Source of the DNA: a virus
DNA length: 64,000 bases
Strand: one strand, 5' to 3'
IMG/VR virus record: IMGVR_UViG_3300036846_001176
Coordinates: 40,560-104,559 of that record
The translations under genes were made by a program, and so were the position numbers. The notes beneath the pieces are model-generated. The model made no database searches, was not told where the DNA came from, and saw only the letters and a list, made by a program, of their open reading frames with translations. Shown piece by piece: positions 3,220 through 38,440 of this stretch (position 1 is its first letter; each line of letters starts with the position of its first letter).

Positions 3220-3833
3220 GCGAGCCGGTCATGAAGCTGGTGGGGATCGTCGTCAACATTGGCGAATACCAGCAGATCTTCGACATCCGGGACTTGAGCG
3301 TCCAGGAGGGGTTGTGGATCGTCTATCAGCTGAACCAGCGGATCTATCAGCTGCAGAAGCTGCGGTCGCCGAACAGCAAGATCATTTACCCGGGCGGCAA
3401 GAAGCGGGACATGCAGTTGCTGCCCGCGCTGATCGAGGAGCGAAAGCTCGGCGAGATTTTCGAAAACGGAGATCTTCGCAGGATCGAGCTGAAGACCGAG
3501 AACTGGCAGTGGTCGCAGACCGGCAACGTCTGCGTTGAGCACGAAAGCTACGGTCGCCCGTCCGGCATCGCGGCAACCGATGCGACGTGCTGGACGCAGC
3601 AATTGTGCCGTGATGGCAAGACGCTGCTCTGGCTGATGTTTCCCCACGCGTCGTTGCTGGCGTTGGTGGAGCAGGCCAAGCGTAACCGCGGCAAGCGAGA
3701 AGGCGGTGATGACCATCAGTCGAAGATGACGGTGGTGCCGCTGTCGGAAATCCTGCGCTGGCTGCGCGGATCCTCCTCATGGTCGCTGACCTCGCCGTGG
3801 CAGTACGGTCGCTGCGCGCACTGCGGAAAATGA
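3216..3833 (+). CDS. PD-(D/E)XK-type nuclease-like protein
   Basis: 205 residues. Residues 85-120 read GDLRRIELKTEN, then TGNVCVEHES and GRPSGIAATDA. An acidic residue (D86), an E-x-K pair (E91, K93), and a following TGN-x-x-x-E strand with GRPSGI are the layout of the PD-(D/E)XK nuclease core found in phage resolvase-like proteins. A CxxC pair (C200, C203) lies at the extreme C-terminus. It starts inside the portal stop (ATGA overlap), so it is made with the portal. A role in trimming or resolving DNA during packaging is inference from position. The alternative is a degenerate, non-catalytic member. Confidence 0.55.
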   Translation: MSEPVMKLVGIVVNIGEYQQIFDIRDLSVQEGLWIVYQLNQRIYQLQKLRSPNSKIIYPGGKKRDMQLLPALIEERKLGEIFENGDLRRIELKTENWQWSQTGNVCVEHESYGRPSGIAATDATCWTQQLCRDGKTLLWLMFPHASLLALVEQAKRNRGKREGGDDHQSKMTVVPLSEILRWLRGSSSWSLTSPWQYGRCAHCGK

Positions 3834-3836
3834 GCC

Positions 3837-6773
3837 ATGGTGTTAAAGCGTGACACCAAGCCACTGACCGAGGCCGAGCACCGCCAGCGACAGGAGGCGG
3901 CCGAGGCGTCGGCCAAGGCCAGGCACCGCGCGGAAACCGCGCCGTCGGTGCAGCAGGGCTCGACCGGCACCCCCTCTCGCGCAGCCGTCGGATTATTCCG
4001 CCAGGGCCAGTCGCGTCCCGGCGGCGGCCGGGCCGGGGGTGGCCTGTGGGACACCCGCACCTCCGAGGCGACGCTCGGCTCGGTCAACGCTCGTTTCCGG
4101 CTGCACTTTCCGGACGCCTACCGCGGTGAGCCACACGAACTGGCGCCGCCGGTCAAAGGGCGCCCGCTGGTGGCCGAAGGCCTGGGCGAGCCGATGCCGG
4201 GCAAGAAGATCGGCGGCTCGCGCTACCGGGCCGTGGGCGCGCAGCTCCACCGCGACCTGGTGATCGAGAACCCCGGCACCTTCACCGAGGCGCTCCGCCA
4301 CCCGAAGATGCGGGAGATCCTGCAGCGCTCGATTGGTGTGGTGCGTGAGCACCAGGCGGGCACCGTCGAGCGGGGCTACAAGGAGCGCCTGATCCCGCCG
4401 ACGACGCCGAGGGGGCTGGCGGCGCGGGCCTACAAGCACGCCGCCCTGATGGCCCTGCACCGGGCGGGCGTCGGCGATTACGACTTCCACATGGATCCGG
4501 AGGCCAAGCGGCAGTTCCGCGGGCTCGAGCGGTTCATGCGATTTGCGCATAGGCGGGTGTTCGACCGGCTGCACACCGAGGCGCCGGCGGCGACGTACGA
4601 GCCCTTCAAGCAGCAATTCGGCCAGCCCTTCCGGTCTCGCAAGCGGGGACGACTGATGGACGTGCCACGGTATCGCATGAGGCCCAACGAGAGATTTGTG
4701 AAGCTGGCCAAGGGCTGGACCAACGCGACAGGGGTGATCCACTCCCCCGGGCGCGGCCCGACCGATCAGGGCGACCAGGGTCACCAGCCGATCGACGTCA
4801 CACGTGAAACATTGGACAGGATTGCTGGCGCATCCCGCAAGCTGCGGTTCAGCCCCAAACTGCACGTGAAGCACGCCGCCCGCCAGGTCGAGCACCACCT
4901 GCTCGGCAAGCGCTGGGACAACACCAAGCACCCTCGTGAGCACACCGGGCAGTTCGCTTCCAAGACCGCCGAGCGGGTCGGCGGCTTTGCCGGGGGTGGT
5001 GTGGGCGCAGCCGGCGGCACCTATCTCGGCTACCGCCACGGCGCGGACGCCGGCGCCTGGCTGGGCCGCAAGACCGGCATCGCCTATGGCCGGGCAGCTG
5101 ACGCCATCCGCGGCAAACGCGGCATTGCCTCGCAGGCCGCCGAGAGCGCCGAAATGGCGGGCGCCAGGATCGGCCGCCACCTAGGCCACAACCGCGGCAT
5201 GCTGCTCGGCGCCGCGCTGGTCGGCATCCCGTCGGCGCTGGCCGGTCGGTATGTCGGGGCCAAGCTCGACCGGCTGCTCAGCCGCCGGCGGGCCAAAAAG
5301 GCTGGCAAGCTCGAGCAGTGGCGCCGGCTCAACGAGGGCATCTCGGTACGACCAACCTCGCGGAAGCAACTCAAGCACGCCTTCCGCAACGCCCGGAGTG
5401 CCAGCGGCAAGATCGGCGCCGCGCATGCGTTCGTTCGCGGCGAGCTCGGCAAGAGGGCGTCTGCAGCGCAAATAGCTCCACCGATCGCTTTTGCGATGCA
5501 GCCGGACCCGGAACTGCGCAAGGTCAGCGGCAGCTTCTCGCTGTCCGACCCGTTCTCCGAGCCACAGTTTGGCGACTACACCTCGAGCCCGGCCATGATG
5601 CTGCGCCGCGCCATGCGCCCGCGCATGCGCCACCGCCGCGCCACCCTGCGGCTCAACACCCAGCGCGGCCTGCGCCATGCGCTGTCCGGCGGCGTTACCC
5701 GTCAGGAGCGCTGGCAGCTCGGTGCCGGTAGCGGCTTCGGCAAGGGTGAGGCGCTGGACAAGTCGTTTGGCTCGATCGCCGGGTCGGCCATCAAGCTCGG
5801 CACAAAAGTTGGTCGCGGACTTGGTCGCGGTGCCGTCCGCGCCGGCCAGGAAGCCAAGGCGACCTGGAAGGAAGAGGGCATCAAGTCGGCGCTCGCTCCC
5901 GCCCACGTGGCGGGCCGGATGGCCGGCGCCGCGGTCGGGGGCGCGCGCGGAGCCAAGATCGGCGGCGCGGCCGGGCTGGCCTCCGACTACGTGCCGCTTG
6001 CCTACACGGCGTACAGTCTTGGTCGCCAAGCCATGAAGCCGCCGGAGCCAAAGCCGCTCGGCAAGGGCGTCATCGGCGATGCCGCCAACCTTGGTCGGCG
6101 GATCTCGAGCCGGGTGTTCGCCCATCCGCGCGTGGTTGCCGCGGTGGACGAGGCCAGGGCACTCGGCGGCCTTATGCCGAAAACGCATGGCTACCGCTTG
6201 GGCCGCACGATGGGCGCCGCGATCGGCGGCGAGCGTGGCGCCAGGATCGGCGGCCATGTTGGTCGTGCTGCCGGCCTGGCGCCGGTTGCGCTGGTCGGGG
6301 GCGGCCTGATCGCCAGCCGCAAGAAGCGCGACGAAGCGATCAACGAGAAGATCAAGCAGTTCCAGCACGTGGCCGATCCGCTGCTTGGCAAGGCGTTCGG
6401 CCCTGCGACGATCGTCCGCGCCGTGCACAAACCGATCGCGGCGCTTTCGCGTCATATCGTTCGGGGCGCGCGCAAGCATCCCGCGATCGCCGGCTTGGCG
6501 GCCGGTGCCGCGGCATTGCCGGCGGCGCATTACCTGCAGCGCCATCCCGGCGAGCGGACGATGATGGGCGCCGTTGCCGGCGGTCTCCTGGCTGCCCGGC
6601 TCTCGCGCGGACGCAGCGCGGCGAAGTTGCTAAGATCAGGGATCGGTAAGGTTCGGGCCTCGCGGACGGCTGTCGCCGCGGGTGCAGCGTTGGGAGGAGC
6701 GACAGCGGCATCCGCAGGTGTGCTCGGTCGGCATAACCGGTTCGAGGATCTGCCCAATCCCGCCAACCCTTAG
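3837..6773 (+). CDS. giant Gly-zipper virion-associated protein A
   Basis: 978 residues. It opens with a charged motif, LTEAEHRQRQEAAE (residues 10-23), which recurs in the head morphogenesis protein downstream. The first 360 residues are basic and globular-looking. At about residue 364 comes KHPREHTGQFASK, then a series of Gly/Ala-zipper stretches (about 380-420, 440-475, 690-730, 785-825, 880-925, 940-965) separated by Arg/Lys-rich linkers. Such segments can insert into or bind membranes. It sits between portal and capsid, so it is probably a minor head or ejected internal protein. I recognise no enzymatic domain. The next gene starts after an AGGAGG site. Confidence 0.75.
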   Translation: MVLKRDTKPLTEAEHRQRQEAAEASAKARHRAETAPSVQQGSTGTPSRAAVGLFRQGQSRPGGGRAGGGLWDTRTSEATLGSVNARFRLHFPDAYRGEPHELAPPVKGRPLVAEGLGEPMPGKKIGGSRYRAVGAQLHRDLVIENPGTFTEALRHPKMREILQRSIGVVREHQAGTVERGYKERLIPPTTPRGLAARAYKHAALMALHRAGVGDYDFHMDPEAKRQFRGLERFMRFAHRRVFDRLHTEAPAATYEPFKQQFGQPFRSRKRGRLMDVPRYRMRPNERFVKLAKGWTNATGVIHSPGRGPTDQGDQGHQPIDVTRETLDRIAGASRKLRFSPKLHVKHAARQVEHHLLGKRWDNTKHPREHTGQFASKTAERVGGFAGGGVGAAGGTYLGYRHGADAGAWLGRKTGIAYGRAADAIRGKRGIASQAAESAEMAGARIGRHLGHNRGMLLGAALVGIPSALAGRYVGAKLDRLLSRRRAKKAGKLEQWRRLNEGISVRPTSRKQLKHAFRNARSASGKIGAAHAFVRGELGKRASAAQIAPPIAFAMQPDPELRKVSGSFSLSDPFSEPQFGDYTSSPAMMLRRAMRPRMRHRRATLRLNTQRGLRHALSGGVTRQERWQLGAGSGFGKGEALDKSFGSIAGSAIKLGTKVGRGLGRGAVRAGQEAKATWKEEGIKSALAPAHVAGRMAGAAVGGARGAKIGGAAGLASDYVPLAYTAYSLGRQAMKPPEPKPLGKGVIGDAANLGRRISSRVFAHPRVVAAVDEARALGGLMPKTHGYRLGRTMGAAIGGERGARIGGHVGRAAGLAPVALVGGGLIASRKKRDEAINEKIKQFQHVADPLLGKAFGPATIVRAVHKPIAALSRHIVRGARKHPAIAGLAAGAAALPAAHYLQRHPGERTMMGAVAGGLLAARLSRGRSAAKLLRSGIGKVRASRTAVAAGAALGGATAASAGVLGRHNRFEDLPNPANP

Positions 6774-6785
6774 TAGGAGGCTCCT

Positions 6786-7316
6786 ATGGCTACCGCCATG
6801 CTTCTCGCTCCGACCGCCAACGCCCCGTACCTGACGCGGCTCGGCAATACCTACACGGCCGACGAATACGGCGTGATCCGCGACGTGCCGTCAGGCACCG
6901 AGGTGACCGATCTGCAGTCGATGGGCTGCTCGCTGGTCCAGCCAGGTCGCTACCCGATCTTCGCGCTGAGCGGTGCGGACATGACCAAGACCACCGACCA
7001 GCAATTCTCCAGCACGCTTGGTCCGGCCAACTGGTATTCGCTTTCCAAGGTCGTCATCACCGGCGCCACCGGGCCGATCACGTCGGTGGTCGGCGGCATC
7101 TACACCCAGCCGGAAAAGGGTGGCGAAGCGGTGGTGGCTGATGGCCAGAACTTCGCGTTGGATGGCGCCACCGAGGGCGAGATGGTGGTGGCAACACTGG
7201 CACCGATCTGCGCCACGCAGTGCTTCAAGGGGCCGCTCTACCTGTCGCTGAGCACGCCGCTGAGCGAGCACGAAACCTGCGACATCTTCGTCTACGGCGA
7301 CGTGATGGCGCTGTAG
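6786..7316 (+). CDS. structural-looking protein, possible head decoration
   Basis: 176 residues, ATG preceded by TAGGAGG (6773-6779), one of the strongest ribosome-binding sites in the window, so it may be made in quantity. Composition is beta-rich with many Thr, Val and Gly (VVITGATGPITSVVGGIYT) and no long helix. The strong site and position within the head module make a decoration or cement protein plausible. I see no motif that decides this. The SD and the bases just before the ATG form a short palindrome, AGGAGGCTCCT. Confidence 0.65.
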   Translation: MATAMLLAPTANAPYLTRLGNTYTADEYGVIRDVPSGTEVTDLQSMGCSLVQPGRYPIFALSGADMTKTTDQQFSSTLGPANWYSLSKVVITGATGPITSVVGGIYTQPEKGGEAVVADGQNFALDGATEGEMVVATLAPICATQCFKGPLYLSLSTPLSEHETCDIFVYGDVMAL

Positions 7317-7355
7317 GCGCCGCAACCAACCGATCGAGCCAACAAGGAGATCGCG

Positions 7356-7760
7356 ATGAGTGGAACCCGAACCGGCACGCAGCCGCCTGCCGCACCTCCG
7401 CCGCCCGCCACGCCACCCGCTGCCACTCAGCCTGCCGGCCAGACGCAGGCCCAGGTAGAGGGCGATGCGCGCGAAGCACAGGGCCAGGGCAGTGGCGCAC
7501 CAACCAACGGCAACGGCGCACCAACCAACGGCTCCGATGCAACAGGCAACCTGGAAGAGCGGCTGAACAAAGGCCTCGAGCGCATCACCGCGTTCCTCGA
7601 CAAGGCCGCGGCGAGCGCCCGCGGCGAAGAGGAAGAGGAACCGGCCGAGGCTAAGCTCCGCAGGGAAGCCATGGACCGGCTGGAGAAGGTCATGGCGCAC
7701 CTGAACGCCGCGTCGATGGAGCTTGGCCAACTCCGCAGCAAGATCGGCTCGACCCAGTAG
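7356..7760 (+). CDS. Pro/Ala/Gln-rich protein with C-terminal coiled coil
   Basis: 134 residues; AAGGAG lies upstream of the ATG. Residues 1-65 are low-complexity Pro, Ala, Gln, Thr and Gly with a short internal duplication (GAPTNGNGAPTNGS). Residues 66-134 are charged and helical (LEERLNKGLERITAFLDKAA, then LRREAMDRLEKVMAHLN), with heptad spacing. The plan of disordered head plus coiled coil is common in scaffolding or assembly factors, but the true scaffold candidate here is the gene before the capsid protein. Function unknown. Confidence 0.65.
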   Translation: MSGTRTGTQPPAAPPPPATPPAATQPAGQTQAQVEGDAREAQGQGSGAPTNGNGAPTNGSDATGNLEERLNKGLERITAFLDKAAASARGEEEEEPAEAKLRREAMDRLEKVMAHLNAASMELGQLRSKIGSTQ

Positions 7761-7762
7761 CC

Positions 7763-8182
7763 ATGGCCGATCCGCCCAAACCCGCGCCACCAGCACGGGT
7801 CGCCGCCACCGCCGGCGATCGGGGCTATGTGCCTGACTTCGATCCCGGCAAATCGAGCCTGACCGGCGAGAAGGTCCAGGTTGTCCCGGTGATGCAGCGC
7901 CAGGGCGACGTGGCCTCGCCGGCCATGGTCGAGGGCATCACGATCCGCCCGGCCAAGGTGATGACCGCCGCCGAGGCGCGCAACACCATGGCGCGCATCA
8001 TCACCGACATGCTGGTGTGGATCGACGGCTGGCCGCACGACCTTCACGGCGAAGAGGCCTATGTGCTGGAGATCTTCCGGGAGATCGCCACGCGGCGGAA
8101 ACTGCGCACCCAGGCGGGGTTGCACGACCAGGACATCGTGGCCGACGACATCGACAAAGCGCACTACGAGCCAAAGCCATGA
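7763..8182 (+). CDS. hypothetical head-module protein
   Basis: 139 residues starting MADPPKPAPPARVAAT. The first 45 residues are Pro/Gly-rich; the rest looks like a helical domain with AEARNTMARIITDMLVWIDGW and a conserved-looking ending with DIVADDIDKAHYEP. It begins three bases after the preceding gene and overlaps the next micro-ORF by four bases (ATGA). No family recognised; the arrangement implies co-translation with its neighbours. Confidence 0.6.
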   Translation: MADPPKPAPPARVAATAGDRGYVPDFDPGKSSLTGEKVQVVPVMQRQGDVASPAMVEGITIRPAKVMTAAEARNTMARIITDMLVWIDGWPHDLHGEEAYVLEIFREIATRRKLRTQAGLHDQDIVADDIDKAHYEPKP

Positions 8183-8247
8183 ACGTCGTCGTTGTCCTGC
8201 TCGGGGTGATCATCGTCATGCTGGTGCGCTATCACGTCGCCTGGTAG
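8179..8247 (+). CDS. 22-residue membrane micro-peptide
   Basis: A short open frame (MNVVVVLLGVIIVMLVRYHV and two more residues) that starts in the stop of the previous gene (ATGA). It is a single hydrophobic helix with a short polar end. The overlap and almost pure aliphatic content support a real translated micro-peptide, for example one that anchors or modulates a membrane event. At this length, chance cannot be excluded. Confidence 0.4.
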   Translation: MNVVVVLLGVIIVMLVRYHVAW

Positions 8248-8251
8248 GCGT

Positions 8252-8392
8252 CTGTTCCACTGGCTACGCCATCTGCTGCACCTCCAGCCGATCGAGGTCG
8301 TCACGGAGCGGCGCAACGGTGATCTCTGGATCGGCGCGCGCTGCGTGATCTGCGGCCGCACCGCGGGCTGGCATCACGCGCGGTTTCGCTGA
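8252..8392 (+). CDS. possible small CxxC protein without a standard start
   Basis: An open frame ending at 8392 encodes LFHWLRHLLHLQPIEVVTER, then GDLWIGARCVICGRTAGWHH. The CVIC pair and the protein-like sequence look like a real zinc-knuckle peptide. However, no ATG, GTG or TTG exists in frame after the upstream in-frame TGA; the only candidates are CTG at 8252 or coupling to the preceding micro-ORF. It might therefore be a remnant or use a rare start. Confidence 0.35.
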   Translation: MFHWLRHLLHLQPIEVVTERRNGDLWIGARCVICGRTAGWHHARFR

Positions 8393-8400
8393 CCGCTGCC

Positions 8401-8422
8401 GGTCGGGGGATCAATCCCGACC
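8401..8422 (+). other. perfect 7-bp inverted repeat
   Basis: GGTCGGG (8401-8407) and CCCGACC (8416-8422) pair perfectly around an 8-base loop. It lies in the 200-bp gap before the head morphogenesis gene. There is no T-run behind it, so it is more likely an operator-like site or an RNA hairpin than a terminator. Confidence 0.45.
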
Positions 8423-8554
8423 TCCCATGTTGGATTTTCACGGGACCGCGCCGGCCGGCCTTTCCTGGTCCGCACTGCCAGGCGGTATCGGCCGACACGA
8501 GGCAGTGGTGGAATGTTGCAATCATTAGAGCTTTCCGGCAAAACTTGACCCAAT

Positions 8555-8577
8555 GCGGCCAGAGAGCCGCTTTTTTT
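8555..8577 (+). terminator. intrinsic terminator before head morphogenesis gene
   Basis: Stem GCGGC (8555-8559) and GCCGC (8566-8570), six-base loop, then seven T (8571-8577). It is a clear Rho-independent form. It covers the ATG at 8553, so that ATG is unlikely to be a start. It would end or attenuate transcripts from the portal side and implies readthrough, antitermination or a new promoter nearby. Confidence 0.75.
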
Positions 8578-8594
8578 GTGGGGAACCGCCGACG

Positions 8595-10697
8595 TTGCTT
8601 CTTGCCAAGCATACGCCCGGGCAACCTCTCTCAGAAGCTGAACACCGCCAGCGGCGCGAGGCCGCGCGCGCGCGATGGGCGGCAGCCGGCAAGACTGCGG
8701 CGATCGGCGCGGTCGGCGGCGGCCTCATCGGTGGCTTCCGCGGCGCTATCCTGAGTGGTGGCAGCGAACGCGCAGCGTCCCTCGCAGCGAGCGCCGAAGG
8801 CCTGCGCCAAGCCTATGTCGCGCGCGCTGCCGAGGAAGCCAGGCGCCGCGACAAGCGCGATGTCGTCCAGCGCTTTTACGAACGCCAGATGCGCCAGACG
8901 CCGGAAGCCGAGGCGCAGACCACGCTGGCCGAGGCGATCGAAAGCCTGCGCAACCCCTATGCCCGCGCCCAGCGACCGGCGCGGCGCCCGGTACGCGAGC
9001 CGCCGATCGTCGGCAACACCACCAACCACCTGGTCTATACGCGCCTGGTCTGGAAGGCCGAGCGCAATCTGAAGCTCGCCCGCAACAAGATCGAGGCTCT
9101 GGTGCGGGCCAACATGGCCGCCGGCGACGACCGCGAGGCGGCCGAAGCGGAACCGACCGTGCGCAGACTGCGCGTCGAACTCGCCTCGACCGAACGCGAA
9201 CTCAAAGACCTCAAGCGGCTGCGGGATCGGGCCGCCACCATCCAGTCGCGTGCCGAGCACACCCGTACGCCGACCAGGCGGCGCGGCAAGGAGATCGCCG
9301 AGCCGAAGACCCAGCGGGTGAAGGCGAACGTGGTGCGCCAGACCCGGGGTGGCGAAAAGGAGGAGATCGAGGCCGGCCGCGGCCGCACGGAACGCGCGGA
9401 TCTACGGGCCGAACTGGAGCGCCGGCTTGCCCAGCACGACATCAAAACCGAGCGCTTCAAGGCAGCCGCCGAGCGGCGCACCATCACCGAGACCGCCGAG
9501 GCGGTACGGCAGAACCTGCTGTCCGGCCATTACCACTCGCAGATCCTGCGCCGGGCCGGCCGGGGCGCGCTGATCGGTGCCGTCGCCGGCCTGACCACCG
9601 CCGGGGTGGCCCTGCTCGCGCATCACGTGGCGACCGCCGGGCGTCGCCGGGCCACCGCTGTGCATAACCCTGTGGGTCCCGTGCATAAAACCGGGGACCT
9701 CCCGCATAATCCGGGCATGTCGCTTTTTGCTCCCTCATTTGAGGGGCCGAAAAGTGACATGCTCGCCAAGGCCGAGCCGCCGCGCGACACGCCGGAAGGC
9801 CAGATGGGCCCCGATCTGGCGGGCGTCTATCGCCGCTGGATCGACCGTCTGCTCGGCCATGGCGATGACCCGGTCAATATCGGCGACGGCCTGGTCGAGG
9901 CGCTCGGCCCGGGCATCACCGAGGCCTTTGCCCAGGGCCTGATCACCCCGCCGATCACCGGGCCCGAGCATCCGGACTATCGCATCGATGTCGACTTCGA
10001 CCTGCTGAACCCGGCGCAGTTGCGCCACATCGCCGAATACAGCCTCGACCGCATCGTCGAGTTGACCGACGCCCAGCGCGAGACCATCCGCGACGCGCTG
10101 CGCGAGCAGAGCGTGCTGCAGGGTATCGGCCCCAAGGACGTCGCCCGCACCATCAAGGAAGCGATCGGCCTGACCACCTACCAGCGTGGCGTGGTCGCGT
10201 CCTTCCGCCGGCAGCTCGAGCAGCTCGATCCGCGCGCGCTGGAGCGCCAGCTCCGCGACAAGCGCTACGACCGCACGCTGTCGGCGGCGATCGCGGCCAA
10301 CACGCCGCTCAGCGCCGAGCAGATCGACACCATGGTCGATGCCTACCATCGCAAGATGCTGGCGCTGCGGTCGCAGACCATCGCCCGCACCGAGGCGCTG
10401 CGTGCCACCTCCTACGGCGGCCTGGCGCGCGCGCAGGAGGTGCTCGACCGGCATCCCGAGCTCGAGGTGACCAAGAAGTGGCTGGCCACCGAGGATAACC
10501 GCACGCGGCCCACCCACCGCGACCTCGATGGTCGCGAGGTCGACGGCATGCTCGGGCATTTCGTGACCAGCGCCGGCCATCCGATCCGCTGGCCGCTCGA
10601 TGAGACCGCGCCGGCCGACGAGGTCATCAATTGCCGCTGCACCCTTCGCTACATCTTCAAGCCGAAGCGGGGCCAGCAACTGGCCGTCAACGCTTAA
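8595..10697 (+). CDS. head morphogenesis protein (Mu gpF / SPP1 gp7-like) with long N-terminal extension
   Basis: About 700 residues. I chose TTG at 8595 over ATG at 8553 because the latter lies in a terminator stem, GGGGA precedes the TTG, and the resulting N-terminus (LLLAKHTPGQPLSEAEHRQR) aligns with that of the giant protein at 3837 (MVLKRDTKPLTEAEHRQR). A Gly-zipper follows (about residues 33-57); the middle is highly charged helix; a hydrophobic segment sits near 320-345. The C-terminus from about 593 (TIARTEALRATSYGGLARAQ, then EVINCRCTLRY) is the Mu-F minor head domain that works with portal and scaffold in prohead assembly. Family members are usually 250-500 residues, so the front part is extra. 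Confidence 0.85.
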   Translation: MLLAKHTPGQPLSEAEHRQRREAARARWAAAGKTAAIGAVGGGLIGGFRGAILSGGSERAASLAASAEGLRQAYVARAAEEARRRDKRDVVQRFYERQMRQTPEAEAQTTLAEAIESLRNPYARAQRPARRPVREPPIVGNTTNHLVYTRLVWKAERNLKLARNKIEALVRANMAAGDDREAAEAEPTVRRLRVELASTERELKDLKRLRDRAATIQSRAEHTRTPTRRRGKEIAEPKTQRVKANVVRQTRGGEKEEIEAGRGRTERADLRAELERRLAQHDIKTERFKAAAERRTITETAEAVRQNLLSGHYHSQILRRAGRGALIGAVAGLTTAGVALLAHHVATAGRRRATAVHNPVGPVHKTGDLPHNPGMSLFAPSFEGPKSDMLAKAEPPRDTPEGQMGPDLAGVYRRWIDRLLGHGDDPVNIGDGLVEALGPGITEAFAQGLITPPITGPEHPDYRIDVDFDLLNPAQLRHIAEYSLDRIVELTDAQRETIRDALREQSVLQGIGPKDVARTIKEAIGLTTYQRGVVASFRRQLEQLDPRALERQLRDKRYDRTLSAAIAANTPLSAEQIDTMVDAYHRKMLALRSQTIARTEALRATSYGGLARAQEVLDRHPELEVTKKWLATEDNRTRPTHRDLDGREVDGMLGHFVTSAGHPIRWPLDETAPADEVINCRCTLRYIFKPKRGQQLAVNA

Positions 10698-10710
10698 TCA
10701 GGAGAGAGCC

Positions 10711-12279
10711 ATGGCAGTCGATCCCGCCCAGATCCAGGCCACCCTCGATGGCGAACTGGCCAAGTTCGTCGAAGCCGCCGGCAGTCCCGAGCGCCAGGCA
10801 GAGGTGCTGATCAAGATCGGCTTCTACCGCCAGGAACTCGCCAAGCAGGCCGACATGCTGTCGAGCGTCGATGACGATCTCGCCATCGAGGTGGCCGAGC
10901 AGTGGTTCGGCGAGGGCGACGAGTTGCTCAAGCGGGCGGTGTGGAATGCCTCGGCGGGCTCTGAGGAAATCCCGCTGCGCAAGCAGGCGCCGGTGCCGGA
11001 GGCCGAGCAGGCGCTCGCCAAGATGGTCGACGAGTGCCAGACCGACAACGCCCGCGCGCTGCTGCTGCACAAGATCGGCAGCTACACGCGCGAGATGAAC
11101 GACATGGTCGATGCGCTGCAGGGCCAGCCCGATGCGCGGGTCAACGAAGTGGTGACCGCGTGGCTGACCGCCGATCCCGGTGAGACGGCGTTGAAGAAGA
11201 ACGTGCTCACCGCGGGCATGCCATCGTCCGGCAGGCGCCTCTACGGCAACGGCGTCGATGGCGATGGCGATCCGGTCAAGGAGACGATCGGCAACGCCTC
11301 AAGCCATGTCGGCAATGAGCTCGACGGCAGCGAGAAGGGTTCCGATCAGGCCATCCGGCGGACAATTCCGCGACGTCCGACCGGTGAGGGAGCGGGGAAG
11401 CGGGTTCGTGGCAGCTTCCCCGCACCCAACCAGCGTGACGGCGAAACGCCGAGCCCTGGCTCGGGTCCGAACGACACCGGCGACGGTGGCGTCAATCCCG
11501 AGATCATCCGCCGCAAGGGCACCACGGGCGGCCTTGGCAGCGTGAAGGGCGCCGATGCCGAGAGCAACGCGACGGTCACGCAGGACAGCACCCATGGCAC
11601 GAACCAGTGGGGCGGTCAGAGCGGCGGCAAGAACCGCAAGCGGAGCAACGAGAGCGACCAGGGCGTGCACACCGCGCAGAAGGCCGAGTTCATCGCCGAC
11701 CTGATGAAGATCGCGCCGGACGAGATGGTCGATGCGATCCTCGAGCTACCGGAAGATGACCAGGACCTCGCCGCCGGCGTAGCCGCCAACCATGCGGCGG
11801 ACCTGCTGGCCTGGACGGGCCTAGTGCCTGAGGGTGGGCTTGCCAAGCGGGCGCTCGATGCCTCCGTCACCGAATGGCTGGAGGAGGATCCCGACCAGAT
11901 CCAGCTGAAGAAGTGGGTGGCCGAGGCGTTGACCACCGCCGAGGAAATCCCGCTCGATCTCGGCAAGGCGATCATCGAATGGGAGCCGGCGGGGCCGCAG
12001 TTCACGGTGCGGCGCGAGGTCGGCAAGAGCGAGGTCGGGGGCGGATTGCGGAAGCTCGGTCCCGGCGGCCAGTTGGCACGCACTGCGGCGATCGTAACGG
12101 GCGCGCATTTGGGCGCCGGTGCGGCGGTCGGTGCTGCTGTCGCTGCCGGCCACAAATTCAAGAAGGCGCCGAAGCACACGCTCGCCCATCATCTCGGCTA
12201 CAGCATGCTGTTCAACCCGGTCGCCTACGGCGGCTATCGAGCAGGTCGCGCGATCGGTCAGCGCCCGCGGGGGGATTAA
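10711..12279 (+). CDS. repeat-containing head-module protein with Gly-zipper tail
   Basis: 522 residues from ATG 10711, which has AGGAGA upstream; the longer frame from 10600 is overlap with the previous gene. Three related helical units share a WL/WF-x-x-DP/GD core, LKK or LLK, and EEIPL (near residues 65-90, 150-170 and 388-415). A low-complexity Gly/Ser/Asn region follows the second unit. The last 70 residues hold a Gly/Ala-zipper and KHTLAHHLGYSMLF with AYGGYRAGRA, a pattern found again in the next protein (KHHLLYTATLGPAYGGYLAG). It contains ELPEDDQD, shared with the scaffold-like protein at 20894. Likely a minor virion protein. Confidence 0.7.
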   Translation: MAVDPAQIQATLDGELAKFVEAAGSPERQAEVLIKIGFYRQELAKQADMLSSVDDDLAIEVAEQWFGEGDELLKRAVWNASAGSEEIPLRKQAPVPEAEQALAKMVDECQTDNARALLLHKIGSYTREMNDMVDALQGQPDARVNEVVTAWLTADPGETALKKNVLTAGMPSSGRRLYGNGVDGDGDPVKETIGNASSHVGNELDGSEKGSDQAIRRTIPRRPTGEGAGKRVRGSFPAPNQRDGETPSPGSGPNDTGDGGVNPEIIRRKGTTGGLGSVKGADAESNATVTQDSTHGTNQWGGQSGGKNRKRSNESDQGVHTAQKAEFIADLMKIAPDEMVDAILELPEDDQDLAAGVAANHAADLLAWTGLVPEGGLAKRALDASVTEWLEEDPDQIQLKKWVAEALTTAEEIPLDLGKAIIEWEPAGPQFTVRREVGKSEVGGGLRKLGPGGQLARTAAIVTGAHLGAGAAVGAAVAAGHKFKKAPKHTLAHHLGYSMLFNPVAYGGYRAGRAIGQRPRGD

Positions 12280-12285
12280 CCCGCC

Positions 12286-15200
12286 ATGGACGGCTTCACC
12301 TTCTTCCTGCCGCTGACCAAGGCGGATCAAGAGAAGCGCCTGGTCTGGGGCCGTGCGGCCGTCGAGGAACCCGACAAGTCGCGCGAGATCATGGACTACA
12401 CATCGGCCAAGCCGGAGTTCCAGAAATGGAGCGACGGCTACGCCAAGGCCACGCTCGGCAAGAGCTTCGGCAACGTGCGCGCGATGCACAACCCGAGGCA
12501 CCTGGCCGGCAAGATCGCTGAGATCATCTACAACGATCAGGCCAAGGCGGTGGATGTCTGCGTCAAAGTGCTGGACCCGGTCGACTGGCAGAAGGTCGAG
12601 GAGGGTGGCTACACCGGGTTCAGCATCGGCGGCGGGTATTTGAAAAAGTGGACCGACCAGCCCTCCGGCTGCACGCGCTACACGCCCCGCATCCAGGAGA
12701 TCAGCTTCGTCGACAGTCCGTGCATTCCTTCGGCGCGGATCATGGAGATGCAGAAGCAGGACGGCTCGACCGAAGAGGTGCGCTTGCGCGGTGTCGCGCG
12801 CTCGTTTGCCGAGCTGCTGCCACCACCGACGTTCGGCGATCTGCATAAGTCAGGAGGAGCGTGGCGCCATCTGGCTGCCGGCGCTGTGGGTGAAACCGCC
12901 GGCAGTGCCGCAGGCTCGATGATTGGCGGGGAAAACATCGGCTCCAACATTGGCGGACAGCTCGGTGGTGCGGCTGGTAGTGCAATCGGGTCAGCCTTCG
13001 GCCCGGTTGGCACGTTTGCGGGTGGGACGCTCGGGAGCCTTGCCGGCTCAGCGATCGGCGGCGCGATCAGCGGTGGCAAGAAGAAAAAGCCGAAGGTGCC
13101 GGATCCAGACGACGATGACGACGACATGGGCAAGGCCGGCTATTCCGGCATGCGCGGCGTCACCGGCATCGTGCGGCCGCCGAAGAAGCTTCGTCCGGGT
13201 GGCAGCATGTTCAAGATCCATCCCGGCATCATCCGCGCGGCCGCGACCGGTGCGCTGCATGGCGCCAAGATCGCGCGCCGCTATGCGCCGCATGCCGCTC
13301 TCATTGGCGCAACCCTTGGCGGCAAGGCTGCCTTCCATGCCTCGCGCCGCATCGGTGGCCGCATTGCCGACCGCATGATGGAGGCCAATGTCCGCCGCGC
13401 CCGGATCTTCGAGGGCATGCACGGGCACTGGCACAAGCCTGGGCCGCCCTCATCGAGCAGGGCGCTGGTGGTGCATGGCGCCAGTACGCACGACTTTGCC
13501 AGGCGGTTGAGCGAGAAGCAGATGCACCACCTGCTCGCCGGTGCGGGAGCTGCGATGATCGGCGGCGCTGGGGTGGGCGGGGCCACTGGCTATTTCGGCA
13601 CTAGGCATGCCAGCCGGCGCGCGGAGCGGGCGCTGACGCCGCGACCACGGCGCATCGCGCGCAAGCAGGAATTGATCGATCGACTGAGCAAGGCGGCTGC
13701 GCCCTCGGTGGCGCGCCGAGGGGCGCGGCTGGCAGCGGAAGCCGCTGCTCTCGGTCTTGGTGTCGGCGTTGGCGCCGCGGCGGCCAATAGGTTCCACGCG
13801 CCGGAGCCGAAGCCCTGGAAGCACCACCTACTCTATACCGCGACGCTCGGGCCAGCCTATGGCGGGTATCTCGCCGGCCGCTACACCGCCGGCTTTCGCG
13901 ATCGAAAGCCGGACACCGAGGTCACCAAGGCCGAGTACGAAGGCTCAGCCGCGGATGAGCGCGAGGACCGGCGTGGCGCGCGTCGCATGGGCATGACGCT
14001 CGCCCAGTACGAGCGCACGGCGCGCGATCGGCGCGAGGACGCTGCCGGTGAGCGCCGGATGGGCAAGGCAGCGCTTGGTGGGTATCAGCAGGGCTATGAC
14101 GACGCGGAGAACGCTGCCGAGGGCACCGAGTTGGCCAATAGCGCGTTCCGCACAGCCGGCAATTTGTACGGCAAGTTGACCGGCAAAAAGCCGGCGCCGG
14201 GCACACAGGGCGCCGTCGAGAAGGTTTCGTTCGGCGCTGTTGCACCAACGCTGCGCACGATCGGCCGGAGCCTCCGTGCCGCACCACTGAAGACGACACG
14301 CCAGTTGGGCGGAGCGGCGGTTGGCCTGGCCGGACGCGCCGCCCGGCGCAATCCTGCGGCCACCTTCGCGGCCGGCGGCCTGACCGGTGCCGCGCTGGCG
14401 CCGTCAGGCAAACGCGAGGACGAAGCGCAGAAGTCCGAACTGGTCGACCTCGAGCAGCTGCGCAAGAACATCCTGCTGCAGGACGACAACACGGTGAGCC
14501 AGTGGCGCGCCGCGCGCTCCGATCAGTGGGAGCCCTCGCACGCGCTCGACTTCAGCTATCACGATCCGAACGACCCGCATCAGGTGATGGCCGGCATGCC
14601 GGCGCAGGCCAAGGGACCGATGGAGCTCGCCGAGCCGATGGGCGACATGGCCAAGGCGACCTCGCCCGAGCAGCGCGCGAAAATTCACCAGACCATGCAC
14701 GAGTTCAAGCATGGCCAGTTGCATTCGTTCCGCGCCGGCGTGCCGAAGCGGAAGATGCCGAAGGTGGCCAACCGCAAGCAGGCGATCGCCATTGCGCTCA
14801 ACCAGGCGCGTCGGATGGGCAAAGGCGAGGATCCGATTTTCGTTGCCGCGCTGACCGATCGGCTGGAAAAGGCAAGCGCCACACGTGGGAAACTCGCCGC
14901 TCCCGATGAGCCAGGCAGCTACACGCACCGCAAGCCGGGTGGTGGAACTGCGTTGGAAAGGCTCGGCATACATCCAAGGCAGCTAGCGAACGCCGCTGCC
15001 AGAACGGGGGCCGAGTATGCCATGCCGCATGCGACGCTTGCCAATCACCCTGCTATGCATGCCGCGTACAGTGCCATGTATAACGCTGGCGCCGGCATGG
15101 CTGCGGGAAGAGCGGCAGGTCATCTGGCCAGCACTCTCCATCTGACCTCGCCGATCGCGCAGCATGCCGCCGCCGAACTTTCCGCCACGGTCGAACGGCG

Positions 15201-16107: not shown

Positions 16108-19100
16108 GCGGGCCCGTGTTCAATCCGGCGATCATCGAGACACTGCGCAAGCGCGTGGCGGCGCATAACGAGATCGTCGCCGGCCATCCGGATCATCAGG
16201 TCAAGCTCACGCGGGTGAAGAAGCTCTACAAGCGCTGGCACTCGGGTCCGAACCCCGCCGGGCACGCGCTGGCCATGATCGATGGGCGCCTGCTGACCTT
16301 GCAGACCCAGGCGCTAGGCACGCTGGCCAAGGCGCGCGAGCCGTTCGATCCCGGCCGCCACCCGCGCGGCCGCGGCGGACGGTTCAGCGGCGGTGGTGGC
16401 GATGACGGCGATGGCGGCCAGCCGCCGGCGCCAGTTCCGTCCGACGATCCTCTGCTGCAGGCAGCGCAGACCCAGATCATCCCGGAAACCCGCTACAGCG
16501 TGATCTGGCCGAAGATCCTCGGCGCAGCTGGCCTTGCCGTCGGCGCGGGGGTTGGCGCGGTGGCCGATACAAGACTGCCCGGCCAGGGCGGCGGCAGCGT
16601 GCCGGATCGCATAGCTACCCACGTGCTCGAGCGCGTCGGCCGCGGCGGTGGCAAGCTCAGCGGGCGCGTTGCGGCGCTGCTCGCGGTGCGGCTGCCGATC
16701 CGCATGGCGCGCGGCGTGATCGGCCGGATCAACCGTGATTACAGCATGGCGATCCCGCGGCCGCGGGCCGGCACCGAAGTGCGCTATCGGGCTGCCATCA
16801 GGGATGTGGGCGGCAAGGTCGGGGCATGGACCGGTCGCACCCTGGGCAACACCATGTCCTACCAATCGCTGCCGGCCGGCTACACGCGCCGCCTCGCCGA
16901 ATTCGAAAGCAACGGCTCGCCGATCGCCGGCCACATCGCCGGCGGCATCGTCGGTATGGCGGTCCCTGGCCTGCCGATCGCCATGCGCCTGCACGACTGG
17001 CAGGAAGAGGCGGGCCCCTACATGGACACGGCGTTCCCGCGGCGCGTGCAGAAAGCCGTAGACGACCTCTGGAACGCACCCGAGGTGCTGGCCAAGCAGG
17101 CGGAACTGCTGGCGCTCGCCGGGGTGCCGGAATTGCGCAAAAGCGACGGTGCGCTCGACCTCGACCAACTGGAAAAGGCGATAGGCACGCAGGCGCTGCG
17201 CGGGCTGTTCAGCGTCATCCGCCGGCCACCGTCGATTTCCGGGATGTTCCGCCGGCCTGCCGCTGCGGCGGCGGCGGCAGCGGGAGGACCGGATACCGGC
17301 GCCTATCATGCCGCTGCCGGGGCGTTCGGGCGAGTGCGACCGCATGTCGCGGTGCCCAACAACCGCCTGGCGCGCGCGCTCTACATGGCCGGCCATGGGG
17401 TGGCGATTGCCGGCGCCGGCGCCGGTGTCGGCGCGCTGACCGGTGCCGGGCTGGCAGCGTTCGCCTCCGAGCATCCGCGCGATCCGCATACCGGGCAGTT
17501 CCGCACCAAGGGGCAGGCGGCGATCGCCGGGGCCAAGCGTGGCGCGCTGATCGGTGCCGGGATCGGCCTGACCGGCGGCGCGATCGCGGCCACCCAGGCG
17601 CAGCGCCGGCTGCTGCGCGAGGCCATCGAGCGGCTGCGCGGGCGCGCCACCACCAAGGTGACCACCGACGGCGTCACCAAAGACGTCAACCTGCACCAGC
17701 AGGCGCACGAGGAGGCCCAGGCCGCGGCGCGCACGGCCTACGCGCATCAGTTCCACGATGAGCACCGACTGGGCCGGCAGCGCATTCCGGCGGCCGCCGC
17801 CAACGTGACCGGCGAGGACCACATCAAGCACATCGGCGCCGAACTGCAGCGCCACGCCGTTGAGACCTTCATGGCCGAGAAGGGCACGGCGATGCAGGCC
17901 GGTGCCAAGGTCTGGTATCGCCATCAACTCGAGGCCGGCTTCGAGGCCGCGGTCAGACGCGCGTTCGGCGAACTGCCCAAGGGGCAGCGCAGCATTCCGC
18001 GCAAGACGAAGTTCGGCACGCTGTTCGATGCGATCGACAAGCGCAAGCTGAAGCCCAATCAGCGCAAGCTCTGGAACAGCCTGGTCATCACCCGCCGCAA
18101 GGGCCTCAAGGACATCGAGGACGTCTATCGGGGCCGTTCCAGGGAGGTGCAGCGGCATGGCGCGACGTTGGGTCGGGAGATGCGCGAGCACGCGCATCTG
18201 ACCGAGGTCTTGCCGACGATTTCCCATGACTGGGCGGCGCTGAAGAATTCCGAGCCGACGCTCGAGCAGATCCGCGAGTTCGCCAAGACGACGATGGGTC
18301 ACACCGTGCGCTCGCAGAGCGTCGAGACCGCGATCGAGGAGGTCGACCACCGCATTCCGACCTGGCTGGAGGGTGCGACCGTCCGGCATACCGCGCTTGG
18401 GACCCAGATCGAACAGGACAAGGCAGCCTACAACGCGCTGAAGGCGGCGGCCGACCAGGGGTTCGATCCGCAGGAAGCGCAGACCATCGAGAACCCGTTC
18501 TCGACCAACAAGAAGAACCGGATGTTCGAGCCGCTGATCGGCGACATCCCGGGGCACCTGCAGAGGCTGCGCGAGGCAGCGGTCAAGCCGTTCCACGACG
18601 CGTTGGCAGCCGAGGTCGCGGCCGCGCACGGGCATCTCGGCGAGATGATCGACGCGACCGAAGCCTCGCTGCAGGCGCGCGCGACGGATCCCGGCGTGAT
18701 CGAGCGGATGGCGCCCAAGATCATGGCGGCGATGGCGGGGCGCATGAAGCAGGCGGCGATCGACACCGCCAACCTGGCACGCGCGCACCGCGACAGCCTG
18801 TCCGGCACGATGCGCGACATCTACGACCAGGTGTATGTTCACACCAATCCGACCAACGCCTGGGCGTCGGCCAAGAAGATGGCGATGAACGCCGCCGATT
18901 ATGGCGAGAAAATCGGCGACTGGGTGCGCCGCAACCACAAGATGATCTGGGGGCTGATCGGCATCGGCACCGCGGTCGGGGTCATCGACATGACCGCGCC
19001 GCGCGGCAAGCGGCTCAATATGCCGCGGCGGCCGAAGGACATGGACGTCGTCTTCGAGGTGCCCGATCCGATCAAGCGGCCGGGCGAGGCGCTCTACGGG

Positions 19101-20897
19101 CTGTCCTATCGCGACACCAAGAACCGCGAGAAGTTCCTCTGGGGCACGCATATCCGCAACCGCGAAGGCACCGATTACGCGGACATTCCGCCGGGCGCCG
19201 AAGTCGAGCGGATAAAGGGCTCGCTGCGCAACTTCAGTGGCAGCGGTGGCGGCAAGATCAACGTGCAGGACGAGGCCGTGGTGCGGAAGGCCATGGCAGC
19301 GGTGGGCGCGAAGCTGAAAAAGGGCGGGCCGCCAGGGTTTGAGTTCGAGCACCGCGATCCGAACCAGACCGACGGTGACGCCAACCGCGCCGGCCAGGAG
19401 ATCACCAACGCGCTCAACCGGACGCATATCCGCGAGAACCTGCGCAACGTGAAGGGCGACGAGGCGCACCCCGACGCCGACCCGTTCTGGCACTCGCTGG
19501 CGCAGATCTTTACCGGTGAGGGCAGCGGGCTCATGACGCTGCGGCAGCGCGCCGGCCTGCTGTTCGGCTTCCAGGACGTCAAGGCCAACCAACTCCGCCG
19601 CGGCATCCTGCCGAACGCATCAGCCTACCAGGGAAGCGACGCCACAAAGGTCGTTCCCGAGATCAGGAAGCTCATCAATATCGGCCGCTTGGCACCGCGC
19701 AACGCCGAGGAATACGGCAACATGCGACGGCTGATCTGGATGAGCGGTCAGCGTGGTGTCGGCGGAAACGTGCAGAACAGCCTGGTCCAGGATCTGAACA
19801 GGGTCTGGACCAGGGCGCATCACAGCAATCCGCCGACCGAGGTCAGCGCTGCGACCACGCCGCCGCCAGGGGCGGCTGCCTCGCATCAGGCCAGGTTCGA
19901 GACGGAGTTCGTCAACATCCTCGACAGCATGCCGCAAGAAGATCGCCCGCTGATGTGGCACGACGAACGGGATTTCCACGACGAGCTCTCGCAGATGTAC
20001 ATGTCCGAACGCACGCGCAGTCATGCGGCCGGGCAGGACGACAATACCGCGCACCGCCATGCGATGGAGGTGATCAACGAGGCGCTCGACCGGTATCGCA
20101 CCGTCGAACAGGCCGAACCGCTCGGCGATCTCTACAAGATGTTCGGCCTGACCAAGCTGCTGCCCGACCATCATCGCCAGCGCATGGGCCTGCCGCCGAT
20201 TTCCGGCGCCTCCAGCGAGCAGCGCCTCGCTCAGCCGCAACCAGCTTCGCCGGGGCCGATGCAGCCCGAGGAGTTCGCCCACCAGCGGCCGCCCGAGAGC
20301 CCGGGTATGGCGCCGACGCAGCCGTCGCGCCCGTCGGGGACAGCGCACGTCCTTGGCCAGGTCGGCTCCTACGGCCTGTCGCAGGCCGGCTACGATGCGG
20401 TGCGTCATCTCACCGCGCATTTCATGCCGTCCGGCGGGATGGTCAGCCGGGCGATGAAGATCGGCCTGAACACCATCGGCGGCGGTGTCGGTGGTGGGGC
20501 ATTGGGCGAAGCCGGCGGCCACGCGATTGGCCGCGCCATGGGCGACTATTCGCCGCAGCAGCGGCCCGACGACACCGGGACCATGGTCGGCCAGACGACC
20601 GGCACCCTGGCCCAGGTCGGCTTCAACATGGCGGCCCCGCGCATTGGCCGCTCGGCGGTCGGCCAGGCCATGCGGCGCGGTGTCACCGGCACCGTCGCGC
20701 GCGTGCTCGGCGGCGCGGTCGGCACGATGGCTGATCCCTGGATCGGGCCATCGGGTACACTCATCGGCGCGACGCTGGCCGGCGCCCTGGCCGACGAGGG
20801 GGCGGACATCCTCTACCGCCACCTTCACCACTACGGCGAGCATGTGCCGCAACATGCGCTCAAGACCCTCGGCCACCAGCGGCAGTCCGCGACATGA
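16104..20897 (+). CDS. giant virion-associated protein C
   Basis: 1597 residues, GTG start overlapping the preceding stop (GTGA). The N-terminal 60 residues are basic and helical (IIETLRKRVAAHNEI). At about 80-94 lies FDPGRHPRGRGGRFSGGGG, and at about 457-470 HPRDPHTGQFRTKGQ, both followed by Gly/Ala-zipper helices (such as HGVAIAGAGAGVGALTGAGL). The centre (about 550-950) is long charged helix; residues about 955-965 hold a hydrophobic stretch (MIWGLIGIGTAVGVIDM). The C-terminal third is Pro/Gln-rich, then Gly-rich. I recognise no enzyme domain. Size, position and membrane-like segments suggest an internal protein delivered with DNA. The next gene starts in its stop codon. Confidence 0.75.
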   Translation: MSGPVFNPAIIETLRKRVAAHNEIVAGHPDHQVKLTRVKKLYKRWHSGPNPAGHALAMIDGRLLTLQTQALGTLAKAREPFDPGRHPRGRGGRFSGGGGDDGDGGQPPAPVPSDDPLLQAAQTQIIPETRYSVIWPKILGAAGLAVGAGVGAVADTRLPGQGGGSVPDRIATHVLERVGRGGGKLSGRVAALLAVRLPIRMARGVIGRINRDYSMAIPRPRAGTEVRYRAAIRDVGGKVGAWTGRTLGNTMSYQSLPAGYTRRLAEFESNGSPIAGHIAGGIVGMAVPGLPIAMRLHDWQEEAGPYMDTAFPRRVQKAVDDLWNAPEVLAKQAELLALAGVPELRKSDGALDLDQLEKAIGTQALRGLFSVIRRPPSISGMFRRPAAAAAAAAGGPDTGAYHAAAGAFGRVRPHVAVPNNRLARALYMAGHGVAIAGAGAGVGALTGAGLAAFASEHPRDPHTGQFRTKGQAAIAGAKRGALIGAGIGLTGGAIAATQAQRRLLREAIERLRGRATTKVTTDGVTKDVNLHQQAHEEAQAAARTAYAHQFHDEHRLGRQRIPAAAANVTGEDHIKHIGAELQRHAVETFMAEKGTAMQAGAKVWYRHQLEAGFEAAVRRAFGELPKGQRSIPRKTKFGTLFDAIDKRKLKPNQRKLWNSLVITRRKGLKDIEDVYRGRSREVQRHGATLGREMREHAHLTEVLPTISHDWAALKNSEPTLEQIREFAKTTMGHTVRSQSVETAIEEVDHRIPTWLEGATVRHTALGTQIEQDKAAYNALKAAADQGFDPQEAQTIENPFSTNKKNRMFEPLIGDIPGHLQRLREAAVKPFHDALAAEVAAAHGHLGEMIDATEASLQARATDPGVIERMAPKIMAAMAGRMKQAAIDTANLARAHRDSLSGTMRDIYDQVYVHTNPTNAWASAKKMAMNAADYGEKIGDWVRRNHKMIWGLIGIGTAVGVIDMTAPRGKRLNMPRRPKDMDVVFEVPDPIKRPGEALYGLSYRDTKNREKFLWGTHIRNREGTDYADIPPGAEVERIKGSLRNFSGSGGGKINVQDEAVVRKAMAAVGAKLKKGGPPGFEFEHRDPNQTDGDANRAGQEITNALNRTHIRENLRNVKGDEAHPDADPFWHSLAQIFTGEGSGLMTLRQRAGLLFGFQDVKANQLRRGILPNASAYQGSDATKVVPEIRKLINIGRLAPRNAEEYGNMRRLIWMSGQRGVGGNVQNSLVQDLNRVWTRAHHSNPPTEVSAATTPPPGAAASHQARFETEFVNILDSMPQEDRPLMWHDERDFHDELSQMYMSERTRSHAAGQDDNTAHRHAMEVINEALDRYRTVEQAEPLGDLYKMFGLTKLLPDHHRQRMGLPPISGASSEQRLAQPQPASPGPMQPEEFAHQRPPESPGMAPTQPSRPSGTAHVLGQVGSYGLSQAGYDAVRHLTAHFMPSGGMVSRAMKIGLNTIGGGVGGGALGEAGGHAIGRAMGDYSPQQRPDDTGTMVGQTTGTLAQVGFNMAAPRIGRSAVGQAMRRGVTGTVARVLGGAVGTMADPWIGPSGTLIGATLAGALADEGADILYRHLHHYGEHVPQHALKTLGHQRQSAT

Positions 20898-22502: not shown

Positions 22503-22766
22503 CACTTGAAATGAGTGTCGCGTTCTGAAAACGCTGTGCCTTGGTGTTGAGCAGCACCTATTGGCCCGGTTCGCCCGCGGGATGGCCGCATGCCTGTTGC
22601 GTGCGGACCGGGTCATACACGCTCCCGTCTGTCGGTCTGAGCAACCGGCGCTGCCCTTTCCTCATGCCGCGGGGCACGGCGACCCGATGATCTGACGCAC
22701 CGGCGCATGCGCGCTGGTCTGCCCGTTACACGCCGCGGATTGCGGGCGCGGCGGGATCTCTTATCC
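22503..22766 (+). promoter_or_regulatory. 264-bp leader of the capsid gene with nested inverted repeats
   Basis: No convincing gene. CCCGGT (22565-22570) can pair with ACCGGG (22607-22612), enclosing CCCGCGGG (a palindrome) and a hairpin CCGCATGC (22586-22593) / GCGTGCGG (22599-22606) with one G-U pair. Because a terminator lies upstream and the highly expressed capsid gene downstream, a promoter and a structured 5' leader are expected here. I do not see a clean -35/-10 pair of the sigma-70 type. Confidence 0.5.
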
Positions 22767-38087: not shown

Positions 38088-38091
38088 ACCA

Positions 38092-38123: not shown

Positions 38124-38207
38124 CGTTTGTACGCCGCGTGTGGCCAGTTGCTCTTGAGGCTGGCAGGTAGCCGTGGTTCAGTCCGGCCGTCACACGGAGG
38201 GGAAACC

Positions 38208-38438: not shown

Positions 38439-38440
38439 CC

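Follow-up and report, generated by a model that had tools for sequence, protein, structure and literature searches.

Which proteins fill the 19.5 kb between the end of the portal gene and the start of the major capsid gene in virus record IMGVR_UViG_3300036846_001176, and are they carried in the head? The stretch analysed here (the window, 64,000 bases) covers bases 40560-104559 of this 104,559-base record and encodes a siphophage-type module of portal, capsid, head-tail adaptor, tail terminator, tail tube, tape measure and tail proteins. Five large genes fill positions 3837-20897, and we name their products by length in amino acids (aa) as P978, P522, P1273 and P1597, and the 714-aa product as the MuF protein. 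An initial annotation, made from the sequence alone, had placed five zipper-rich proteins here, between portal and nuclease genes and the capsid gene, as a set presumed to be ejected with the DNA. The five open reading frames (ORFs; 978, 714, 522, 1273 and 1597 aa) do lie between a portal matching PF04860 and a capsid matching phrog_13692, but no gene close to the portal could be identified as a nuclease, and three small genes (6786-8182) had been overlooked. From sequence comparison, we read the interval with moderate confidence as an expanded head-cargo cassette, whose giant proteins are probably packaged, cut by a protease and delivered with the DNA.

Division and expansion of the head cassette

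Relatives of the capsid form two groups, compact and expanded. In the 14 compact members (Polewnik, Sonali, THSA-485A, MMB025 and the metagenomic or binned contigs G009, G010, G014-G018, G022, G023 and L096) the genes follow the order portal, single protease-scaffold gene, capsid, and the portal often carries an extra C-terminal part (portal-MuF); this fusion is annotated in Sonali, and Polewnik and other compact relatives have a larger portal gene. The expanded group comprises six genomes including the window, with gaps of 19-31 kb and largely one gene order. Individual gaps are 19.5 kb in the window, about 21 kb in G001 (whose contig ends overlap by 127 bases, a sign that the assembly is circular), 21.8 kb in the near-identical G002 and G003, 19.4 kb in G024, 30.5 kb in G025 and about 29 kb in G004, the last being read through contig ends that share no overlap, with circularity assumed. 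The suspected expansion over a usual 2-4 kb is therefore real, the compact gaps measuring 1.3-5.8 kb. Genes of relatives were taken as the longest non-overlapping ORFs, and some of their start codons are approximate. The order portal, P978, MuF protein, P522, protease-zipper protein, P1597, scaffold and capsid is shared by the window, G001, G002/G003 and G004, and G024 and G025, whose capsids are about 50% identical, retain it without a detectable P522. The P1597 proteins are 31-58% identical across genomes.

The compact genes suggest how the interval was opened. A single 364-aa protein of G014 matches both residues 1-170 of P1273 (E 5.7e-43) and residues 415-496 of the scaffold (E 8e-5), and Polewnik has a profile match to the C-terminal part of the scaffold (E 3e-5). 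Since one compact protein spans the protease of P1273 and the C-terminal part of the scaffold, an ancestral protease-scaffold gene was divided; P1597 and the remainder of P1273 sit between its two parts. The difference between compact and expanded gene orders shows, at the level of homology and gene order, that an old cassette was split and filled with large proteins. Brevundimonas phages Polewnik and Strzyga illustrate the unexpanded state, with related portal, protease-scaffold and capsid genes in identical order but a gap of about 2 kb and no giant proteins. Relatives also give hints of the host, which point to Brevundimonas (Polewnik) and to the Rhodospirillales-binned contig L095; P1597 had no match in bacterial genomes. 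One in-frame TGA each was noticed in the G025 capsid (88267-89799) and the G021 portal (37964-39295), which may stem from an error in sequencing, from recoding or from damage to that copy.

The initial annotation overlooked the MuF and protease-like domains; a probable protease and a scaffold are thus present. The MuF protein ends in a PF04233 domain (E 7.6e-11; 43.2 bits against a curated cut-off of 29.6; phrog_3517, E 8e-65), and its gene lies in the same cassette downstream of the portal. The arrangement of MuF-type polymorphic toxins was not found, no toxin domain following the MuF domain, which ends the protein (residues 519-698 of 714). P1273 begins with a putative XkdF-like domain (phrog_9427, a family of head maturation proteases, E 8.9e-6; phrog_21715, E 1.4e-9), whose homologue in compact genomes is the protease portion of the single protease-scaffold gene, and its DUF6496 (14677-14823) recurs in 4/4 homologues scanned. 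The MuF protein and the protease are ordinary head parts bearing zipper extensions, and P522, acidic and rich in the motif LxK, is probably scaffold-like, so the five do not form a set of equivalent zipper proteins. Descent of P522 from a scaffold duplication was considered and is unsupported (profile comparison, E 0.11), and kinship of P978 with P1597 was rejected on comparison. ARAGORN called a tRNA-Thr antisense within the P522 gene (10986-11080, minus strand), probably a false positive, and a 1092-aa ORF antisense to P1597 (16314-19592, minus strand) is an artefact typical of high-G+C coding DNA.

Zipper helices, LxK sites and the HPRxxxGRF tag

Zippers were counted as GxxxG with a gap free of charged, polar and proline residues and compared with shuffles of the same protein, either over its whole length or within 40-residue blocks that preserve local Gly/Ala richness (1000 shuffles). 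Under whole-protein shuffling the observed and expected counts were 17 and 4.2 for P978, 5 and 0.7 for the MuF protein, 22 and 4.2 for P1273, and 21 and 4.4 for P1597. Block shuffling raised the expectation to 6.3, 7.5 and 6.9 for P978, P1273 and P1597, and 0/1000 shuffles reached any of their counts; that of the MuF protein was reached in 15/1000 and is borderline. P522, with 2 observed against an expectation of 1.9, is no zipper protein, and the one zipper tail that it has (residues 437-522) is missing from all three of its relatives. Zipper richness, claimed for all five, therefore holds for three and weakly for a fourth. Likewise, the claimed Arg/Lys-rich linkers agree with the net positive charge of P978 (+97), the MuF protein (+23), P1273 (+43) and P1597 (+39) but not with that of P522 (-14). 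Shared short modules proved few within the genome, the sole pair reaching E 5e-4 being P522 473-513 and P1273 493-532; across genomes, though, a zipper module has passed from one gene family to another, residues 358-526 of P978 recurring inside G002's counterpart of P1273 (E 1.4e-23). Portal and capsid showed no zipper excess in these tests, nor did most other proteins of the genome. The tape measure is zipper-rich too (35 against 10.0 by whole-protein shuffle; reached in 7/1000 block shuffles), and the zipper region of P1273 resembles the tape-measure family phrog_167 (E 2e-7). Because the tape measure is encoded separately, in the tail module, the giant zipper proteins of the head module are not tape measures.

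LxK occurs more often than in shuffled sequences in the scaffold (76 against 16.1, z 17), P522 (45 against 8.9, z 13), P1273 (58 against 28, z 6.3), P1597 (69 against 35.5, z 6.1) and P978 (29 against 17, z 3), an enrichment that survives local shuffles, and is not enriched in tail proteins (10 against 10) or the capsid (4 against 3.2). Conserved Lys columns carry a hydrophobic residue at -2 in 6/11 cases in P1597, 7/9 in the scaffold and 7/11 in P522, compared with 2/11 in the portal and 1/6 in the capsid as controls; with these three proteins and P1273 pooled, Lys columns differ from conserved Arg columns (Fisher p 1e-4). Moreover, the sites tend to fall at boundaries. In P1597 they lie at residue 74, at the end of a conserved 77-residue N-terminal segment that closes with LAKA, in a cluster at 315-344 and at 1343 ahead of a Pro-rich linker; in the MuF protein one lies at residue 404, immediately N-terminal to the MuF region; and in most family capsids that could be read, an N-arm LxK, usually followed by Ala or Ser, precedes a conserved YDLE segment. 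A narrower motif, LxK[AS]F, was abandoned, LxK holding most of the signal. We regard LxK as a candidate cleavage site of the phage's XkdF-like protease, a prediction resting on enrichment, conservation and position. The HK97 capsid is cleaved between Lys103 and Ser104, a precedent for cleavage after Lys. A 491-aa protein of the tail region (53466-54941) contains three [LM]xK[AS] motifs against 0.1 expected.

A second motif, HPR[DG]xxGRF with close variants (hereafter the tag), occurs 16 times in P1597-family proteins (1.9 expected) and 5 times in P978-family proteins (0.9 expected), mostly 11-14 residues past an LxK or immediately ahead of a zipper, and does not occur in the 9732 residues compared from other proteins of the window. 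When viral contigs were scanned with a DNA pattern, 108 tag stretches emerged; among the matches listed, 78 frames had a median length of 941 aa, many exceeding 1500 aa, with the tag at median residue 16.5. Ten upstream neighbours, picked for distinctness and completeness before their identities were known, all match portal-type families in PHROGs (10/10), and of the 62 tag genes preceded by 1 kb or more of sequence, 48 lie no farther than 5 kb from a portal or MuF-like gene, a count not independent of the former as its reference set includes those ten neighbours. Streptomyces phage Gilgamesh encodes a 4624-aa protein without a Pfam domain between its portal-MuF fusion and capsid (gp48, L102:11979-25853; HPRDSKGRF at about residues 37-45), and Gordonia phage Boopy a portal-adjacent 734-aa gp78 with the tag near its N-terminus (L101:13123-18655 covers gp78-gp80). 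Boopy gp80 (1017 aa) has a C-terminal ADP-ribosyltransferase domain (PF03496, E 7e-18), and a single 1208-aa protein at L153:739-4365 matches in succession a portal, a MuF-type head morphogenesis protein and the ADP-ribosyltransferase family phrog_3895. The presence of the tag on portal-adjacent giants of many unrelated phages means that it is not special to the expanded clade; a slight literature search did not find it described. We consider unlikely a combined scheme in which the tag is a general head-loading signal for giant injected proteins of long-tailed phages, working alongside LxK cleavage by XkdF-type proteases, and in which the freed Gly-zipper pieces of the expanded clade form a membrane conduit, a siphophage ejectosome borne in the head with exchangeable enzyme cargo.

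Probable head cargo and its alternatives

The P978 slot speaks most directly for cargo. Its core (about residues 100-335) is constant among orthologues and the sequence after it varies: zippers follow in the window, an inorganic pyrophosphatase (InPase; PF18823, E 1.7e-42) with zippers in G004 and a NUDIX domain in G025 (phrog_1198, E 3e-22), and in G024 the zipper excess is absent. The domains listed for phage polyvalent proteins, which are thought to be packaged in virions and injected, include InPase (PMC5512222), and the enzyme domains that orthologues carry in this slot are the strongest sequence evidence that it holds delivered cargo. An ADP-ribosyltransferase-like stretch seen by eye in the G004 homologue was unconfirmed by Pfam or PHROGs and was not used. 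Like the polyvalent proteins (Iyer et al. 2017, PMC5512222), those of the window are very large, lie beside portal and packaging genes and are likely packaged; portal and head genes flank the cassette, and the G004 orthologue combines core, InPase and zippers. In contrast to them, the filler in the window consists for the most part of Gly-zipper helices where recognised enzymes would stand, and the modules are separated by candidate prohead-protease sites. Each protein of the window has at most one recognised functional domain. The MuF protein resembles SPP1 gp7 in its domain and its gene's position downstream of the portal, but here the domain, fused to the portal in compact relatives, is C-terminal to a 430-residue zipper-bearing extension, and P978 and the small genes intervene after the portal. 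The cassette is, on the head-cargo reading, a zipper-rich variant of MuF/polyvalent head cargo. The initial proposal that the proteins are internal to the head and processed in the prohead gains indirect support from gene order, the MuF domain, a candidate LxK site that falls at domain boundaries and recurs in scaffold and capsid N-arm, and the enzymes of orthologues.

We infer head packaging, cutting after LxK and ejection, and propose the following course. Once the ancestral portal-MuF, protease-scaffold and capsid order had been split and its gaps occupied by large proteins, the MuF protein, P978, P1273 and P1597 would enter the procapsid by several routes: MuF would bind the portal, and N-terminal tags and the protease domain that heads P1273 would contribute. 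SPP1 gp7, which enters the procapsid by portal binding and supports the start of infection (PMC6316719), shows that a MuF protein can be brought in by way of the portal. The XkdF-like protease would then cleave scaffold, P522 and giants after LxK, freeing folded domains and Gly-zipper helical modules. SPN3US head proteins lose N-terminal propeptides at a short protease motif, AxE (PMC10052503); T4 internal proteins and Alt and SPN3US gp53 and gp54 likewise reside in the head and have their N-termini trimmed at a short motif recognised by the prohead protease, but their motif differs from LxK, their sequences are unrelated, and the window belongs to a siphophage-type genome of about 100 kb. The mature pieces would exit with the DNA at infection, which the precedents of MuF/SPP1 gp7 and polyvalent proteins make likely. 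Folded domains could work in the cell as polyvalent-type cargo, to which InPase and NUDIX in sister phages point. More speculatively, the likeliest task of the zipper helices would be to attach to or enter the inner membrane, perhaps as a conduit, and to aid the passage of DNA or cargo domains beside the zipper-rich tape measure. Transfer of protein, not just DNA, from head to cell is poorly known in long-tailed phages, and the cassette offers a testable picture of it, with a portal-linked cargo set, a candidate motif for where the protease cuts and a short tag by which such cargo could be sought in any phage genome. If this picture is right, the tag together with LxK would allow many giant phage genes without a name, the longest being the 4624-aa one of an isolated Streptomyces phage, to be predicted as head cargo.

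Several observations weigh against this reading. P978 and P1597 had zero matches in the isolated-phage collection, so no isolate in it carries them, and to judge from the collections searched the expanded clade has no isolated member. No enzyme domain besides the protease was recognised by Pfam or PHROGs in the window's giant proteins, and the protease call itself is tempered by PF14550 (S78_2), which scores 19.5 bits on P1273 against a 24-bit cut-off. LxK might have to do with helices or with binding rather than with cleavage, and in the MuF protein as a whole it is not enriched (10 against 10.1). Classical transmembrane segments are few, just two passing the usual hydropathy threshold. PDB fold searches with models of the P978 core (mean pLDDT 58) and P1597 560-1420 (mean pLDDT 68, pTM 0.35) gave no significant match, the best being coiled-coil and BAR proteins of little meaning.

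The strongest competitor, possible yet less probable than the head-cargo cassette, makes the giants pure host-takeover cargo, that is, head-packaged polyvalent effectors whose zippers are linkers or an unfolding aid in the tail and have no membrane role. InPase and NUDIX in the P978 slot fit it, as do the tagged portal-adjacent giants without zippers elsewhere, one of which has the ADP-ribosyltransferase Boopy gp80 as a neighbour. It accounts less well for zippers that exceed local composition and resemble those of the tape measure, and for a P1597 that stays giant without a recognised enzyme in every relative scanned. An assembly core, an enlarged inner scaffold that sets a large head size and is digested and gone before or during packaging, without ejection, seems unlikely. 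The LxK peak in scaffold and P522, the location of P1597 between the halves of the old protease-scaffold gene and a weak match of P522 to a solved scaffolding-protein fusion (E 0.012) agree with such a core, but Alicyclobacillus phage MMB025, whose capsid is related and whose genome measures 105 kb, has a compact interval of 2.1 kb, so genome size does not require giants, and neither the enzymes of orthologues nor the conserved non-repetitive domains that P978 and P1597 retain are expected of it. Equally improbable, in our judgement, is a trans-envelope conduit of zipper proteins like that of T7 gp14-gp16 or P22 gp7/gp16/gp20. Such podophage ejection proteins are large, helical and thought to exit the head with DNA (PMC8954989), and the size, helical content, Gly-zipper helices and portal-side position of the window's proteins recall them, as does the phrog_167 similarity; yet no likeness of sequence or fold to known ejection proteins was detected in Pfam, PHROGs or PDB, and the phage already encodes a long tail and tape measure. 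Functionless Gly/Ala-rich drift in a genome of 66-70% G+C, where most proteins are high in Gly and Ala, is already contradicted and very improbable, given three zipper counts above local-composition shuffles, the lack of excess in most other proteins and a gene order retained despite the divergence of P1597.

Feature coordinates and neighbouring genes

Features of the head cassette and its surroundings, in window positions.
Feature	Position	Strand	Remarks
Portal protein	1426..3219	+	PF04860 E 1.7e-12; phrog_2662 E 1.9e-59; C-terminal MuF domain of compact relatives absent
205-aa protein, phrog_13596 (unknown function)	3216..3833	+	E 7.8e-12; homologue in G001
P978	3837..6773	+	Conserved core ~100-335; Gly-zipper segments 382-422, 629-653, 885-961
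HPREHTGQF tag of P978	4929..4955	+	Gly zipper immediately after
Three small proteins (176/134/139 aa)	6786..8182	+	Kept in close relatives
MuF protein, 714 aa	8553..10697	+	N-terminal extension with zipper 49-65; hydrophobic segment 338-356; MuF domain C-terminal
LAKA (404-407) of MuF protein, candidate protease site	9762..9773	+	Precedes MuF region; LxKA in four orthologues
MuF domain, residues 519-698	10107..10646	+	PF04233
P522, acidic, LxK-rich	10711..12279	+	Zipper tail 12019-12276 seen in this genome only
P1273, whole ORF, 1273 aa	12286-16107	+	
Putative XkdF-like prohead protease domain, N-terminal part of P1273	12286..12780	+	phrog_9427, phrog_21715
Remainder of P1273	12781..16107	+	Zipper clusters, strongest 206-267; DUF6496 at 798-846
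P1597	16104..20897	+	Zipper regions 141-155, 432-496, 1459-1563; long helical middle; C-terminal globular part
LAKA candidate site (74-77), then HPRGRGGRF tag (86-94), of P1597	16323..16385	+	
HPRDPHTGQF, second tag of P1597	17472..17501	+	Zipper immediately after
Scaffold-like protein	20894..22447	+	C-terminal part resembles that of compact protease-scaffold gene
Major capsid protein	22707..24275	+	phrog_13692 E 3.4e-135
LxK-[AS] of capsid N-arm, L48-A51	22848-22859	+	Conserved
Tape measure protein, 2138 aa	39736..46152	+	phrog_1716 E 7.9e-11

P1597 also has a hydrophobic segment at about residues 948-962. PADLOC gave no convincing match in the window. Right after the tail tube gene, 28055-30616 encodes a protein of 853 aa, 30% of them Gly, in which collagen-like triple-helix repeats form 12 stretches, and a 195-aa ORF at 60450-61037, with a strong hydrophobic segment (29-47) and an excess of small-residue zippers (z 7.8), is possibly a small membrane protein.

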